DNA from: Rhodocyclaceae bacterium
GTDB taxonomy: Bacteria; Pseudomonadota; Gammaproteobacteria; Burkholderiales; Rhodocyclaceae
Length of the DNA stretch: 34,155 bases
Direction of reading: 5' to 3'
Assembly (NCBI GenBank): GCA_030652245.1
Contig: JAUSBB010000019.1
Span: 1 to 34,155, forward strand
Positions 2,152 through 33,712 of this stretch are shown one piece after another. Position numbers and translations under genes: made by a program. Below the pieces are notes generated by a model that saw nothing but the letters and a program-made list of their open reading frames with translations, was not told the DNA's origin and did no database searches. Each line of letters starts with the position of its first letter. Position 1 is the stretch's first letter.

Positions 2152-2663
2152 AGATCTGCATCGTTTCGGACAGCCACGATCGCGGCCCGCTCCTGGCAAC
2201 CGCCATCGAGATTGCCAAGGCCGAGGGCGCGGCGGCGGTGATCCACTGCGGCGACCTGATCGGCACCAACACCCTCAAGGCGTCGCTGAAACTCGGCCTG
2301 CCGATTCACGCCGTGCATGGCAACAACCTCGGCGACCCGGTGACCATCGCCCGGCTAGCCTGCCACTCGGAAGGTCTGCTGCACTACCACGGTAACGATG
2401 CCAGCATCGAACTGGGCGGCCGGCGCGTCTTTGTCACCCATTATCCGCACATCGGTCGCGCCTTCGCCTGCACCGGCGATTACGATCTGGTCTGCTGCGG
2501 CCATAGCCATGTGCCGGCGCTGCAGGAGGAACCGAATGTCAAGGGCGGCCGCACCTGGCTCGTCAACCCTGGCACCGTCGCCGGGCTCGGCGCACCGGAA
2601 GCGACGTGGATCATGGGCGACCTGGCCGCCCTGCACTTCGAGATTCGTACTCTGCCGCGCTAA
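2148..2663 (+). CDS. YfcE/MJ0936-type metallophosphoesterase
   Basis: 171 aa; metal-binding motifs DSHD, HCGD, HGNN, THYP, CGHSHVP, NPGT; overlaps the preceding ORF by 4 nt. Confidence 0.9.
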   Translation: MKICIVSDSHDRGPLLATAIEIAKAEGAAAVIHCGDLIGTNTLKASLKLGLPIHAVHGNNLGDPVTIARLACHSEGLLHYHGNDASIELGGRRVFVTHYPHIGRAFACTGDYDLVCCGHSHVPALQEEPNVKGGRTWLVNPGTVAGLGAPEATWIMGDLAALHFEIRTLPR

Positions 2664-2686
2664 AAGTCGGCGCTGGCGGGACGGCG
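2662..2686 (+). repeat. Dispersed element copy 1 (AAAAGTCGGCGCTGGCGGGACGGCG)
   Basis: Exact consensus; overlaps the phosphoesterase TAA stop and lies in the gap to convergent cheA. Confidence 0.9.
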
Positions 2687-9233: not shown

Positions 9234-9258
9234 CGCCGCTCCGTCAGCGCCGACTTTT
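9234..9258 (-). repeat. Dispersed element copy 2 (AAAAGTCGGCGCTGACGGAGCGGCG)
   Basis: 22/25 match to consensus; begins directly after the cheB TGA stop (9259-9261). Confidence 0.75.
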
Positions 9259-9837: not shown

Positions 9838-10763
9838 TATTTGCGGCGGTCGGCGCGCTCATAGACGGTGCGGCCCAGGGAGCGAAACAGGTCTGTCGCA
9901 TGTAGAAAACTTTCTGAATGCCCCGCATAGAGCAGGCCGTCCGGATGCAGCAGCGGCACGAATTTCTTGAGTATCTGATATTGCGTCGGCTTGTCGAAGT
10001 AGATCATCACGTTGCGGCAGAACAAGGCATCGAACGGCCCCTTGGCCGACGGCCACTGGGCATCGAGCAGGTTGATGCGGCTGTAGGTGATCAGCTTTTG
10101 CAGTTCGGGGCGCACGCGCACCTGGCTGGTCGGCACGCCCGCGCCCCTGACGAAATATTTGCGCTGCCGCTCGGCATCCAGCCGCTCGATGCGGTCGACC
10201 GGATACTCGCCGCGCGCGGCGGTCTTCAGCACATTCGTATCGATGTCGCTGGCGTGAATCTGCACCGGCGGCGTCAGGGTATTGAAGACTTCGCAGGCGG
10301 TAATCGCCAGCGAATAAGGCTCTTCGCCGGTGGAGGCGGCGGAGCACCAGATGCGGATCGGCCGCTGCGCCAGCCGCAGCAGATGCTTTTGCAGCATCTC
10401 GAAGTGATGATTTTCGCGGAAGAAGGAAGTGAGATTGGTCGTCAGGGAGTTGACGAAAGTTTCCCATTCCGCGGCATGGCCCTGTTCGAGATAGGCCAGA
10501 TACTGATCGAAGCTCGTCATGTTGAGCGCCCGCAAGCGTCGCGCCAGGCGCGAATAGACCATGTCCTGCTTGATCGGCGCCAGTGATATGCCGGCATGCT
10601 TGTGGATCAACTGCCGCACCCGCTCGAAGTCCGCCGCGGTGAAATGGAACTCGCGGCCGGCCGCCGACGCGGGCGCCAACACCGGAGCCGTCCCCGTTTT
10701 AAGCGGCGGGTCGGCTGACGCCGTCCCGCCAGCGCCGACTTTCATTCCAATAGGCAGCGGCAT
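9837..10763 (-). CDS. cheR: Chemotaxis protein methyltransferase CheR
   Basis: 308 aa; [16 protein letters not shown]...[11 protein letters not shown]...[17 protein letters not shown]...[13 protein letters not shown]. Confidence 0.96.
10719..10742 (-). repeat. Dispersed element copy 3, in frame near the 5' end of cheR
   Basis: AAAGTCGGCGCTGGCGGGACGGCG followed by TCAGCCGACCCGCCGCTTAAAACGGGGACGGC; translates as KVGAGGTA in CheR. Confidence 0.92.
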
Positions 10764-11713
10764 CAGCGGCTGGCCGCGCCCGCCGGCGGCGGCACGATGC
10801 CGCGCACGGTCAGTTCCTCGGCATCGGTCACTTCGGCCGCCGGGGCTTCCTTGCCGTCGCCGAGAATTGCTTCTTCGGTGCGCTTATTGAGAACGACGAT
10901 GCTGATGCGGCGGTTGATGGCGCTTTGCGGCTGCGCCTTGTCGTAAAGCACCGTTGAGGCGAAGCCGAGCACGCGGATGATTTTCGCGTCGTCCAGGCCG
11001 CCCGTGATCATCTCGCGGCGCGAGGCATTGGCGCGGTTGGTGGAAAGCTCCCAGTTGCCGAAACCGCGGTCGCCGCCCGCGTAGGGCGTCGCGTCGGTGT
11101 GTCCCGAAAGGGAAATGCGGTTGTCCACCTTGTTGAGCAGCGGACCGATCTCGCGCAGAATCTGCTTGGTGTAGGGCTTGAGCTCGGAGCTGGCCAGATC
11201 GAACATCGGCCGGTTCTTTTCATCGACGATCTGGATGCGCAGGCCTTCGCTGGTGATGTCGATCAACAGTTGATTCTTGAACTGCTTGAGCGTCGGGCTG
11301 GCCTCGATCAGCGTTTCGATGTCGACCTTCAGCCCTTGCAGGCGCTCTTTCTCCATGCGCTCGAATTCTTCCTTCATGCGCTTTTCGCTGATCTTGCGCT
11401 CACTCTTCGTTTCGCCGCGCTTGACCTGGCCATGGGCCTGCGAAAGATCCTGCCCGCCGCCCTGAATGATCGAAGAGGCATCGCCGGCGCCCGAACCGCC
11501 GAACATGGCCACCATCAGCGGTGTCTGGAAGTGGTCGGCGATCCCCTTCAGGTCGCCTTTGGATGTCGAGGCAAGCAGCCACATCAAGAGAAAGAAGGCC
11601 ATCATCGCCGTCACGAAGTCGGCATAGGCGATCTTCCAGGCGCCGCCGTGCGCGGCACCGCCGCCCTTCTTGATCTTCTTGACTACGATGGGTTGCTGGC
11701 TGTCATCGCTCAT
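10763..11713 (-). CDS. motB: Flagellar motor protein MotB
   Basis: 316 aa; GAWKIAYADFVTAMMAFFLLMWLL and OmpA-like peptidoglycan-binding region (LSGHTDATPY). Confidence 0.97.
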   Translation of the reverse strand: MSDDSQQPIVVKKIKKGGGAAHGGAWKIAYADFVTAMMAFFLLMWLLASTSKGDLKGIADHFQTPLMVAMFGGSGAGDASSIIQGGGQDLSQAHGQVKRGETKSERKISEKRMKEEFERMEKERLQGLKVDIETLIEASPTLKQFKNQLLIDITSEGLRIQIVDEKNRPMFDLASSELKPYTKQILREIGPLLNKVDNRISLSGHTDATPYAGGDRGFGNWELSTNRANASRREMITGGLDDAKIIRVLGFASTVLYDKAQPQSAINRRISIVVLNKRTEEAILGDGKEAPAAEVTDAEELTVRGIVPPPAGAASR

Positions 11714-11715
11714 GG

Positions 11716-12573
11716 CTATTTACCCTTGCGGCTCTTGATATCCTCTTCGAGTTCGATGAAGGTCGGGCGGTCGGTGGAGAACAGCACCTTGCGACCAAAC
11801 TCGACGGCGACCTGCGGTGCGTAGCCGTTCATGCTGGCCAGGAGCACGGCCTTGATGCATTGATAGATCTTGCCGCCCTCTTCCGCCTTCTGCTCGAGCT
11901 GACTGGCGATCGGCGCGGTGAAGCCGTAGGAGGCCAGAATGCCCAGGAAGGTGCCGACCAGCGCACCGCCGATCATCTTGCCGAGCACGGCGGGCGGCTG
12001 CCCCACCGAGCCCATCACATTCACGACGCCCATCACCGCGACGACAATGCCAAAGGCCGGCAGGGCATCGGATACCTTGGCCATGACATGGGCGGGAACA
12101 TGGGCTTCCTGGTGGTGCGTCTCGATTTCGATATCCATCAGGTTTTCGATCTCGAAGGCGTTCAGGTTGCCGCCGACCATCATGCGCAGATAGTCGGTGA
12201 TGAATTCCATGACGTGGTGATCGTGACTGACCGAGGGATATTTCGAGAAGATTGGGCTGGCCTCGGGGGTTTCGACATCGTTCTCGATCGACATCAGACC
12301 TTCCTTGCGCACTTTCGCCAGGACCTCGAACAGCATGGCCAGAAGGTCCATGTAGAGCGCCTTGTTGAGAGGTGAGCCCTTGAGAACGGAGGGTAGCGCA
12401 CCGAGCGTTGCCTTGACCGCCTTGCTGCCGTTGCTGGCGATAAAACCGCCAATCATCAGGCCAACGATGGCGATATATTCGAGCGGAACCCAGAGGGCGC
12501 CGAGGCTACCGTGCACGGCATAGGTGCCGATGGAGGCGAGCAGAATAATGACGTAGCCGACGAGCAGTGACAT
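11716..12573 (-). CDS. motA: Flagellar motor stator protein MotA
   Basis: 285 aa; MLLVGYVIILLASIGTYAV-like N-terminus (MSLLVGYVIILLASIG), VVAVMGVVNVMGSVGQPPAVLGKMIGGALVGTFLGIL. Confidence 0.97.
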   Translation of the reverse strand: MSLLVGYVIILLASIGTYAVHGSLGALWVPLEYIAIVGLMIGGFIASNGSKAVKATLGALPSVLKGSPLNKALYMDLLAMLFEVLAKVRKEGLMSIENDVETPEASPIFSKYPSVSHDHHVMEFITDYLRMMVGGNLNAFEIENLMDIEIETHHQEAHVPAHVMAKVSDALPAFGIVVAVMGVVNVMGSVGQPPAVLGKMIGGALVGTFLGILASYGFTAPIASQLEQKAEEGGKIYQCIKAVLLASMNGYAPQVAVEFGRKVLFSTDRPTFIELEEDIKSRKGK

Positions 12574-16486: not shown

Positions 16487-17347
16487 TTATTTTTCCGTCT
16501 CGAACACCACCGGCAACAACACCACGAAGTTCCGCCCCTGCAAAGATTCCGGCAGCGCGGCGCGCGTGACCGCCTGACGCAGCATCTCCAGCGCGGCCGC
16601 GTCGAGCACCGCATGACCGCTGGAACGATTCAGATCGACACGGCGGGCCGGCACACCCGTCTCCACCGTGACACGCACTTCGGCCGTGCCAGCCAACCCC
16701 GCCCGCTCCGCCGCGTCCGGATAACGGCGAAAGCGGCGCGCCTCGACCGCCAGCGCCAGGCGAAACTGCCGCAGGCCGGCGGCATGGGCGCCACGTTCAT
16801 TTATCTCCTGCGCCAGGGCTGCCGTGGCCGGGCCCGCCATGTGACGCGGCACGACTTCGCCACCCGCCCCACTGGCTATCGGTGCCTGGGCCTGCTCCGG
16901 CAGGACCGGCATATCAAAAGTCGGCGCTGGCGGGACGGCGTTAGCCGGACCGCCGCGTAAATCGGGGACGGCGTTAGCCGGGAATACCGCTCCCCTCTCC
17001 CCCGGCCCCTCTCCCGCAAGGGGAGAGGGGAGTCGAAGCCCCTCCCCCCGCGCGGGGGAGGGGTTGGGGAGAGGGGGAAATGCGGCAGTCGGCGCACGCT
17101 GCAACACCGGATCGGGCGCGTCGACCGTTGACGGCGCGGGCAGCAACCTGCCCTGCAAAACGCTTGCCGGCGGGACGCTTTGCTCCATTGCACTAAACTG
17201 TGGCAGCAGCCCCAGCAACAGCAGCGCGTGGAACAGCAGCGACAAAACGGCGGGACGGAGCGGAAATCCCCGCAATTCCCAGGCCTGTTCCGGCCGCCGA
17301 GACGAACTTTCCATTGTCACAATACTCTGATAGGTTTTGGGTTCCAT
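16487..17347 (-). CDS. TonB-like energy transducer protein
   Basis: N-terminal TM (LSLLFHALLLLGLLPQF), Pro-rich linker, C-terminal TonB-like domain (YPDAAERAGLAGTAEVRVTVETGVPARRVDLNRSSGHAVLDAAALEMLRQA). ORF track extends to a TTG at 17359; ATG at 17347 or 17314 more likely. Confidence 0.85.
   Translation of the reverse strand: MEPKTYQSIVTMESSSRRPEQAWELRGFPLRPAVLSLLFHALLLLGLLPQFSAMEQSVPPASVLQGRLLPAPSTVDAPDPVLQRAPTAAFPPLPNPSPARGEGLRLPSPLAGEGPGERGAVFPANAVPDLRGGPANAVPPAPTFDMPVLPEQAQAPIASGAGGEVVPRHMAGPATAALAQEINERGAHAAGLRQFRLALAVEARRFRRYPDAAERAGLAGTAEVRVTVETGVPARRVDLNRSSGHAVLDAAALEMLRQAVTRAALPESLQGRNFVVLLPVVFETEK
16916..16981 (+). repeat. Dispersed element copy 4, extended form, inside the tonB-like gene
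   Basis: AAAAGTCGGCGCTGGCGGGACGGCG + TTAGCCGGACCGCCGCGTAAATCGGGGACGGCGTTAGCCGG; antisense to the gene, read as [20 protein letters not shown]. Confidence 0.92.
16992..17077. repeat. C/G-rich nested inverted-repeat element inside the tonB-like gene
   Basis: CCCCTCTCCCCCGGCCCCTCTCCCGCAAGGGGAGAGGGG...CCCCTCCCCCCGCGCGGGGGAGGGGTTGGGGAGAGGGGG; two inner hairpins in an outer stem; translates as PLPNPSPARGEGLRLPSPLAGEGPGERG. Confidence 0.85.
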
Positions 17348-20869: not shown

Positions 20870-22960
<2,091 letters not shown>

Positions 22961-23488: not shown

Positions 23489-25549
23489 TCAGGCCGTCAG
23501 CTTGCGGTAAATCTCCGCCACCTTGAGCGGCAGCTTTTTTGCGTCGTCGAGCACCGTGTAGCTGGCCGGGCCCACCATGTGGCGCAGGTAATCCGCGCCG
23601 TGCCGGTCGATGGTGATGCAATAGCCGCGGATGCCCTGCTCGCGCGCCTCCTGCAAGGCGCGCCGCGTGTCCTCGATGCCGTACTGGCCGCGATATTCGT
23701 CGCCAAAATCATCGGGACGGCCGTCGGAGAGCGTCACCAGGAGCTTGTGGCGCGCCGGTTGCTTTGACAGGAGATGGCTCAGGTGGCGGATCGCCACGCC
23801 CATGCGAGTGTAGTCCTTGGCCTCGATGGCGTCGATGCGGCCACGCACGGCGTCGTCGTAACGATCGGCGAAAGACTTGATGCGGTAGATGTCGCAGCGC
23901 GTGCGCGTCCAGCCGCTGAAGCCGTAAATCGCATAGGCGTCGCCGAGCTTTTCGAGCGCCTCGCACAACATCACCAGCGACGCGCGCTCGGCATCATTCA
24001 CCCAACCCTTGGTCGACCCGCTCATGTCGATCATGAACATCGCCGCCAGGGAACGTTCGTTTCGCACCCGCCGGCAGAACAGGCGGGGCGAGGGTTCGGC
24101 GCCGCTCCGGCGGTCATTCACCGCCTCGACTTGCGCATCGAGATCGATTTCCTCGCCCTCCGGCTGGCGCCCGAGAATGCGGTCCTCGCCGCGCACCGCT
24201 TCGAAGCGGCGCTTGATCTGCTGGATGTGCGCCGCGTAGCGGGTCTTCGCGTCGCGCACGAACTGCCCATCACCCGGCGTCACTTCATTCACATAGACGT
24301 GACACCATTGGCGGCGGTAGGCGTTGCGGTGATAGTCCCATTCGTCATAGCGATAATCCGCAGCGCGATTGTCAATCTGTTCGGGCAGGCCGAGGTTCTT
24401 GCCGGTCGGCTGCCACGGACCGTCGCCGGCCGGCGTCAGCACCGCGGGCGGCAACTCGCCCAGATCCTGGACCAGCGATTGCGCCGCGGCCCGGGCATCG
24501 GGCGGCAGCGTCACGGCCTCGCCGTCGAGGCGGATTTCGATCTCGCCGGTTTCCGTTTTCAGTTGCGCGGCAAATTCCGCGGGCGACGCCGGCTTTTTGC
24601 CCGCCGTGCCCTTGAGAGCGCCGAGCGCACGGCGCAGAATTTCCGTCTCGCGGGCGATGCGTTCCCCACGCGCCAGCGCAGCAGCCGCCGGATTGAGGCG
24701 GGCGACAAAAGTCGGCGCTGGCAGGACGGCGCCGTCCGCCATGAATCGGGCAAGCCAGGCCAGCGAAACGCCGACATCGGCCCGCGGCGACTGCAGCTCG
24801 GGCAGCGCGACATGGAGTACCGCCGGCCAGGCGCCGCGCAGGGCGACCAGCATGGCCCCGAGTCCTGGCAAGTCGCGCCGGACACAGGCTTCGAGCCGCA
24901 CGGCTTCCAGCACGGCCAGCCAGTTTCCCGCCGTACTTCGGTCGGGCCAGCGGGCGAGTTCAGCCTCCAGATCGACGTTGAATGTGCCATAGCGCGTCTG
25001 CGCCCACATCTCCACCGCCAGCCCTTTGTAAAGCTGGCGATTGTCCTGGGCTTCGGCGCTGAGCGCGATGCGCTCGGGCAGGAAGATCGTCTCGGTATCC
25101 GTCCAAGGGTAAGCGCCTACTTTCAAGGACAGCGCTCTGCCGGACAAGCCCTGCACAAAACGGCCGAGCCGTTGTTCAACCTCGGCAAAGCAGACAAGGC
25201 GGCGGCCGTCGCGCCGGGCGACAAAGCCATCCAGGTCGCGCAGAGAATCCATCGCCTGACGCAAGCCATCGCGATCATAGGCGTCCAGCGCGCCAATCAC
25301 CCAGGCTTCGAAACCGGCCGTGTCGAGAGATTCCAGCGCCTGGGGCGCCAGCGTGGCCACCATGTGGCCGATTTCGGCATAGGTCTGCGCCGCCACGCCC
25401 GCCATGCGCATGACGAGTTCCTGCTGGGTGCGCGACAGCGCTTCGAGTTGCGCCGCCAGTTTCCCGATCTTGCGATGCGAGGACGAGGCGAACAGCAGCG
25501 CGTCCAGGCGCTCTTCGATTTCATGCTCGAAGAGGCGACGTTCAAGCAC
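23489..25549 (-). CDS. cbbO: CbbO/NorD-type VWA domain protein
   Basis: 686 aa; VWA MIDAS MFMIDMSGSTKGWVND; C-terminal TLSDGRPDDFGDEYRGQYGIEDTRRALQEAR; next to cbbQ/norQ. Confidence 0.85.
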   Translation of the reverse strand: MLERRLFEHEIEERLDALLFASSSHRKIGKLAAQLEALSRTQQELVMRMAGVAAQTYAEIGHMVATLAPQALESLDTAGFEAWVIGALDAYDRDGLRQAMDSLRDLDGFVARRDGRRLVCFAEVEQRLGRFVQGLSGRALSLKVGAYPWTDTETIFLPERIALSAEAQDNRQLYKGLAVEMWAQTRYGTFNVDLEAELARWPDRSTAGNWLAVLEAVRLEACVRRDLPGLGAMLVALRGAWPAVLHVALPELQSPRADVGVSLAWLARFMADGAVLPAPTFVARLNPAAAALARGERIARETEILRRALGALKGTAGKKPASPAEFAAQLKTETGEIEIRLDGEAVTLPPDARAAAQSLVQDLGELPPAVLTPAGDGPWQPTGKNLGLPEQIDNRAADYRYDEWDYHRNAYRRQWCHVYVNEVTPGDGQFVRDAKTRYAAHIQQIKRRFEAVRGEDRILGRQPEGEEIDLDAQVEAVNDRRSGAEPSPRLFCRRVRNERSLAAMFMIDMSGSTKGWVNDAERASLVMLCEALEKLGDAYAIYGFSGWTRTRCDIYRIKSFADRYDDAVRGRIDAIEAKDYTRMGVAIRHLSHLLSKQPARHKLLVTLSDGRPDDFGDEYRGQYGIEDTRRALQEAREQGIRGYCITIDRHGADYLRHMVGPASYTVLDDAKKLPLKVAEIYRKLTA
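24707..24731 (+). repeat. Dispersed element copy 7, antisense inside cbbO
   Basis: AAAAGTCGGCGCTGGCAGGACGGCG (24/25); the gene reads through it as AVLPAPTF. Confidence 0.88.
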
Positions 25550-33687: not shown

Positions 33688-33712
33688 CGCCGTCCCGCCA
33701 GCGCCGACTTTT
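33688..33712 (-). repeat. Dispersed element copy 8, between convergent moaC and the epimerase gene
   Basis: Exact AAAAGTCGGCGCTGGCGGGACGGCG followed by CCAGCATGGGGACGGCGCTAG; overlaps the epimerase TAA stop. Confidence 0.92.

Follow-up and report, generated by a model that had tools for sequence, protein, structure and literature searches.

The window, as we call the whole stretch of 34,155 nt of Rhodocyclaceae DNA that was analysed, carries on its minus strand (16487..17314) the gene of a TonB-like energy-transducing protein, 276 codons long including the stop. The start, MESSS, is conserved among the orthologues, and residues 201-276 matched the Pfam profile TonB_C with an E-value of 4.5e-10, a profile match to the C-terminus of a TonB-like protein. 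The layout of the TonB family is present: a hydrophobic N-terminal segment, PLRPAVLSLLFHALLLLGLL, and a Pro-rich linker in the middle of the protein, both read from the sequence, precede the TonB_C domain. Translation of 16487-17314 confirmed the coordinates and the peptide that the initial annotation had given for the linker repeats, as well as its view of a linker filled by two different repeat families, both in frame. The first, element A, has its core AAAAGTCGGCGCTGGCGGGACGGCG at 16916..16940 (plus strand). This core is free of mismatches, was recognized by 19-mer matches in the genome, by the consensus and by the frame, and encodes AVPPAPTF on the gene's strand. Direct repeats at a spacing of 33 bp define behind it a tail unit of 33 bp, TTAGCCGGACCGCCGCGTAAATCGGGGACGGCG (16941..16973, plus strand; 11 codons, a PANAVPDLRGG-type repeat), and a truncated second unit of 8 bp, TTAGCCGG (16974..16981, plus strand). 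The second family, element B, is a C/G-rich nested palindrome at about 16990..17080, assigned to neither strand and translated into PPLPNPSPARGEGLRLPSPLAGEGPGERG on the gene's strand; it was identified by inverted repeats, its predicted fold, other copies and a six-frame check. The edges of B in the TonB-like gene are approximate; the linkers of the nearest orthologues fail to align there. Eight bp adjoining B, GTCGGCGC (17088..17095, plus strand), equal the start of the A core, a length insufficient for a call.

The initial annotation had proposed a comparison of the linker among orthologues, and this comparison revealed no conservation of the region at the protein level. Element A, at up to three mismatches, was present in 16 of 18 TonB orthologues from this genus and the A-rich genera and in none of ten from A-poor genera (Fisher P 5e-6, kinship ignored). 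It always ran in the sense that yields AVPPAPTF, in one frame, while its position in the linker varied, and nearly all congeners share an identical 20-mer in this frame. Since the orthologues hold A at varying linker positions, A is no landing event peculiar to 16487-17314. The proposal that the GTCGGCGC block had landed here as an element found no support, and an insertion of A into TonB was rejected: the motif is found genus-wide in one frame, it has arisen by substitution elsewhere, as seen in the NorD-like gene, and it changes in concert at orthologous sites (see below). That the linker is permissive held as far as it tolerates the A motif; a transposition target for A it is not. B was detected in no TonB orthologue examined and is, unlike A, peculiar to the window's copy of the gene.

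Sequence, abundance and distribution of element A

A is a motif of 24 bp, (A/G)AAAGTCGGCGCTGGCGGGACGGC(G/A), of which the left half, AAAGTCGGCGCTGG, is stricter. As the initial annotation had expected for both families, it recurs in the genome: a 19-mer query gave 431 matches at up to two mismatches in the window's own genome (G000, a 2.27-Mb assembly, 85 % complete) and five with the reversed control. The strands share these copies as 215 and 216. Neither A nor B recurs by chance; of the A core, nine matches were found in the window against 0.12 expected. The commonest 12-mers, AAAGTCGGCGCTGG prominent among them, all derive from A, in 1.24 Mb of the complete congener G017 as in 0.42 Mb of the own genome. 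In 204 copies of G017 (1.24 Mb read), positions -3 to +21 around GTCGGCGCTGGCGGGACGG have a high information content and those beyond have next to none, and the own genome presents the same edges. The flanks in G017 are random and a target-site signature is absent. With a density of about one per 5-6 kb, the copies are spaced more evenly than random in G017 (CV 0.81 and 0.72; P 0.0065 and 0.0025); neighbours less than 200 bp apart and inverted close pairs were not seen in this genome, and counts per 100 kb were unrelated to GC skew. According to our own simple gene calls, 45 % of the perfect copies in G017 and 54 % in the own genome are intergenic, compared with 8-10 % of intergenic DNA. Genic copies use all six frames, in each of which the core is open, and two readings dominate, KVGAGGTA and AVPPAPTF. 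Unrelated proteins share AVPPAPTF or KVGAGGTA patches because of the A motif; such patches are otherwise open to misreading as protein motifs. The predicted fold of the core (-6.6 kcal/mol, z -0.15) contains no palindromic hairpin.

Further cores lie in the window on both sides of the TonB-like gene. Motif matches without mismatch are intergenic, at 2662..2686 (plus strand) with convergent genes on either side and at 33688..33712 (minus strand) after a moaC-like gene, where genome G009 has a copy with two mismatches at the same place. On the minus strand, a core with three mismatches follows a cheB-like gene (9234..9258, motif match), and one with a single mismatch (10719..10743, motif match and ORF list) is located at the start of a cheR-like ORF in the KVGAGGTA frame. 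A ygiQ-like gene holds two plus-strand cores that were studied by orthologue comparison. The site at 21616..21640 (one mismatch) is occupied in G009, G010, G012 and G015, degenerate in G008 and absent in G017, and the site at 22878..22902 (three mismatches), in the C-terminal part of the gene, has a copy with zero to one mismatch at the orthologous place of G017. Alignment and translation placed a core with one mismatch (24707..24731, plus strand), read as AVLPAPTF, inside a minus-strand gene for a NorD-like VWA protein, the key site for substitution and not insertion. The junction of motA- and motB-like genes at 11713-11717 is nearly gapless in the window; the same spacer in G008 and G017 comprises about 100 bp with an A core, and that of G009 is of similar length.

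In the own genome, a minority of A cores bears variable tandem tails of 32-33 bp, and the tails seen in TonB recur behind other cores. At L017, L020, L026, L029 and L012, the core bears one to three tandem units of 32-33 bp in which its GGGGACGGC end recurs. The tails have stops in three frames and none in the frame used in TonB. Tail units were absent in G017 with its hundreds of cores. Their number differs between orthologues, e.g., between the own and the G015 TonB or in ygiQ of G010, and the units are a possible VNTR typing marker.

High numbers of A were found in this genus and in g2, g9, g62 and g70, with lower abundance in g88; most of the remaining genera of the family have next to none. 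The named records that contain exact copies belong for the most part to Rhodocyclaceae, Sulfuritalea, Sulfurisoma, Azonexus and Propionivibrio among them. Several JAHJEO01 contigs (L209, L232, L254, L286), a record titled Gammaproteobacteria bacterium, have exact cores that may originate from misbinning, mislabelling or transfer. Exact cores, mostly one each, were also found in 38 IMG/VR viral contigs (L320-L357), which may derive from the flanks of prophages or from phages adapted to the host. Of the transformation machinery, the Competence domain of ComEC/Rec2 was found in the own genome; with its presence in 79 of 80 family genomes, A-poor ones included, it does not discriminate. Literature searches retrieved no paper containing the A core sequence and none on an uptake sequence or interspersed repeat in Rhodocyclaceae or on natural transformation in Sulfuritalea.

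Origin of the A copies and their interpretation

In the gene of the NorD-like VWA protein (23489-25549, minus strand) the A core lies at a codon shared by the congeners, which read AV(L/P)PAPTF. A-poor relatives align through this site with other residues, mostly without a change in length. The A-rich genomes G026, G019 and G079 have (A/G)V(P/S)PAPT(F/L) shifted by a few residues, and the length differs by one residue at most. Third positions in five species were identical in 80 of 80 comparisons inside A and in 57 % in the flanks, for pairs that are non-independent and a site picked for holding A. An ungapped-alignment test against insertion has been published for the USS of Pasteurellaceae (PMC1626085). 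Applied to A-coded parts and 400 kb of the A-poor genome G028, it yielded ungapped alignments for six of eight segments at an identity of at least 50 %; in alignments of all qualities the A-coded segment had a gap in nine of 19, gaps being common in the weaker ones. At A sites in variable linkers and spacers, species differ in length by about 33-75 bp. Where its origin is visible, as in the NorD-like protein, A arises by substitution and not by insertion; the alignments are less clear in variable linkers, and at some linker or spacer sites an insertion may have taken place.

At orthologous sites A shows concerted species dialects. The base after the core, which lay outside the searched 19-mer, was an A at 13 of 13 orthologous sites in G017 and a G at 12 of the 13 in the own genome. 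Congeners differ likewise in the exact counts for the two forms, 208 vs 19 in G000, 1 vs 93 in G017, 254 vs 28 in G010 and 1 vs 115 in G004. Had separate copies transposed, this one base would not have been rewritten at corresponding places. Biased replacement through uptake and recombination would do so, as would selection exerted by one binding protein.

In the latter case A would be a site bound by a chromosomal protein, be it a nucleoid organiser, a regulator, or a repair or segregation factor; selection would keep the sites and a changed specificity would lead to dialects. Concerted change and the constraint at the DNA level are accounted for equally well by such a site, and the even spacing without close pairs could suit chromosome organisation. 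We consider it unlikely, however, as roughly one in two perfect copies is genic, unlike regulator sites, and hundreds of near-perfect 24-bp sites hold information beyond the need of a dispersed binding site. Strand neutrality and the independence from GC skew argue against a polar site like KOPS or Chi, and A is patchily absent, from most genera of the family. Still less probable is a mobile short repeat of the REP, MITE or SDR type, inserting into linkers and gaps. The very high copy number, the patchy distribution, the modular tails with their variable unit number and the length differences of about 33-75 bp in linkers and spacers would be in line with mobility, but the substitution origin in the NorD-like protein with the out-of-register A of other genera, the dialect switching at the same sites, the core without hairpin (z -0.15) and the flanks without target-site signature oppose it. 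Y1_Tnp (RAYT) genes were found neither in the own genome (85 % complete) nor in the complete genome of G017, both with hundreds of A copies, and a RAYT-mobilised REP was rejected on this observation together with the missing hairpin of the core. Selection of the AVPPAPTF peptide itself in TonB and NorD linkers, with the DNA repeat as a by-product, would explain why this reading is among the two favoured frames, and Pro-rich linkers suit TonB. This we regard as extremely improbable in view of the use of all six frames and of third positions that are fixed inside A next to flanks of 57 % identity; the intergenic copies, about half of the perfect ones, already disfavour it.

A top-abundance oligomer that is strand-neutral, evenly spaced, derived by substitution, differentiated into single-base dialects and situated in permissive places is, in our assessment, probably a motif that resembles the DNA uptake sequences (DUS/USS). 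DUS and USS have in common with A the rank as top oligonucleotide, the strand balance, the substitution origin and the concerted dialects. USS are not insertions (PMC1626085); they occur in genes and between them, evenly spaced, and originate by point mutation (PMC1939737). DUS form dialects in Neisseriaceae, of which some genera lack DUS (PMC3630211); ComP is the DUS receptor in this family. A paper of 2025 still names uptake sequences for Neisseriaceae and Pasteurellaceae only (PMC12616744). Whether A would be a true DNA uptake sequence, with dialects across several genera of Rhodocyclaceae and without precedent beyond these two families, seems to us evenly balanced. We propose it as a candidate for an uptake sequence of Rhodocyclaceae-like bacteria, the third and independent of the other two, and infer uptake as the putative driving process behind A, together with a receptor, from the sequence data.

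In the proposed uptake mechanism, a receptor of the competence machinery would prefer motif-bearing DNA, and conspecific fragments with the motif would be taken up and recombined over homologous sites. Point substitution and biased replacement would let A build up wherever DNA or protein tolerates it, i.e., in intergenic spaces and in flexible linkers such as that of TonB, where the AVPPAPTF frame suits the Pro-rich sequence. The bias in uptake and recombination would cause a concerted change of A and lead to species dialects. In the clade of the own species the A core has also gained the tandem tails of 32-33 bp, and B, in frame beside A in one species only, is a separate, unrelated repeat. 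If the uptake-sequence reading is true, free-living betaproteobacteria of the sulfur cycle would perform sequence-selective natural transformation with a motif-specific receptor. With a third case that is independent and comes from environmental bacteria, it would become testable whether uptake sequences owe their evolution to receptor bias and molecular drive or to a host-associated life. The dialects, the related genera lacking A and the complete congener genomes would allow a direct mapping of the co-evolution of receptor and motif.

Element B, a dispersed palindrome

The nested inverted repeat of B is formed by the arms 16990-17002/17020-17032 and 17040-17053/17050-17063. The element is open in all six frames, and its predicted fold of -84.8/-86.6 kcal/mol (z -7.1) is a dispersed strong hairpin as known for REP and REPIN. 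The initial annotation had suggested a genome search for the palindrome; a 100-base query gave 30 matches in the own genome, several of which are one site on both strands. At least 12 matches were obtained in seven of 41 genomes. Genomes rich in B are the own genome, G008, G009, G010, G015, G019 and, from another family, G050; most other congeners have no B or almost none. The window's copy has its best match, at 93 % identity, in G008. Long copies have the ends CCCCTCTCC...GGGAGAGGGG in common. For the CCCCTCTCCC block of B, a literature search found no bacterial paper.

In the own genome, three copies are nested within an A core, each at almost the same position, AAAAGTCGGC^..GGCGGGACGG. These copies are L126:3511-3626, L124:1380-1493 and L123:1530-1641 (G000:C209, C123, C15), and L385 (G010:C27) is a further copy of B in A. 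For three of about nine full copies, the latter an approximate number, the probability is about 1e-5 if the target is random; the pattern looks like a preference of B for A as its target. A nesting of B inside A was considered for the window as well and rejected: it is true of the three other own copies, whereas the B of the window is next to the A tail.

B is best described as a palindromic, dispersed, mobile-type repeat of the REP/MITE type, separate from A, and we infer that it moved by transposition. The initial annotation had taken the C/G-rich block for a mobile-type palindrome in a length-tolerant linker and was right in kind, with a linker unconserved as protein and orthologues free of B. 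It is doubtful that B is a REPIN-like element moved by a Y1_Tnp (RAYT) transposase that relatives encode. Y1_Tnp genes are present in the B-rich genomes G008, G009, G010, G019 and G050, and most B-free congeners are without. RAYT genes are, however, normally flanked by their own REPs, and around 12 Y1_Tnp-containing loci of relatives, in stretches of generally a few kb on each side, no B copy was located. In the own genome and in G015, both incomplete, B was present and Y1_Tnp was not found. A RAYT-linked REPIN was rejected: the presence of Y1_Tnp correlates with B, yet none of these Y1_Tnp loci has B nearby.

Comparison with known systems

Like the DUS of Neisseriaceae, A is a short motif with hundreds of nearly identical copies distributed over both strands, in and between genes, with single-base species dialects and with genera of the family that lack the motif (PMC3630211). 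Its sequence as a whole is unrelated to DUS, and about 24 bp exceed the 10-12 of Neisseriaceae DUS and the 9-12 nt of DUS and USS cores. The density of A is lower than that of Neisseria DUS, and inverted close pairs, as in Neisseria terminators, are missing in G017. The A core is stop-free in every frame, whereas most DUS dialects contain UGA. With the USS of Pasteurellaceae A shares an A-run followed by a strict core, the substitution origin (PMC1626085) and a proportion of about half or more genic copies. It differs from USS as a G+C-rich single block without downstream AT-rich tracts, in a different family. No known uptake sequence resembles the tandem tails that A has in some species. A fixed head module and a variable number of internal units are found in pneumococcal BOX and comparable modular repeats. 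The tails of A resemble BOX in the fixed head followed by a variable unit number; unlike BOX, the A core evolves in place by substitution, and the tails are missing in a species with hundreds of cores.

As short, dispersed, palindromic DNA with tens of copies and a strong hairpin, B resembles REP, BIME and REPIN. It departs from them in an own genome without RAYT and in RAYT genes of relatives without adjoining B, as well as in its location, in a coding linker here and inside A in several copies. Rickettsia palindromic elements (RPE) are repeat DNA inserted in protein genes and translated in frame in a tolerant region. Although sequence and host are unrelated and a single genic B copy was studied, B is, like RPE, repeat DNA in frame inside a tolerant protein region.
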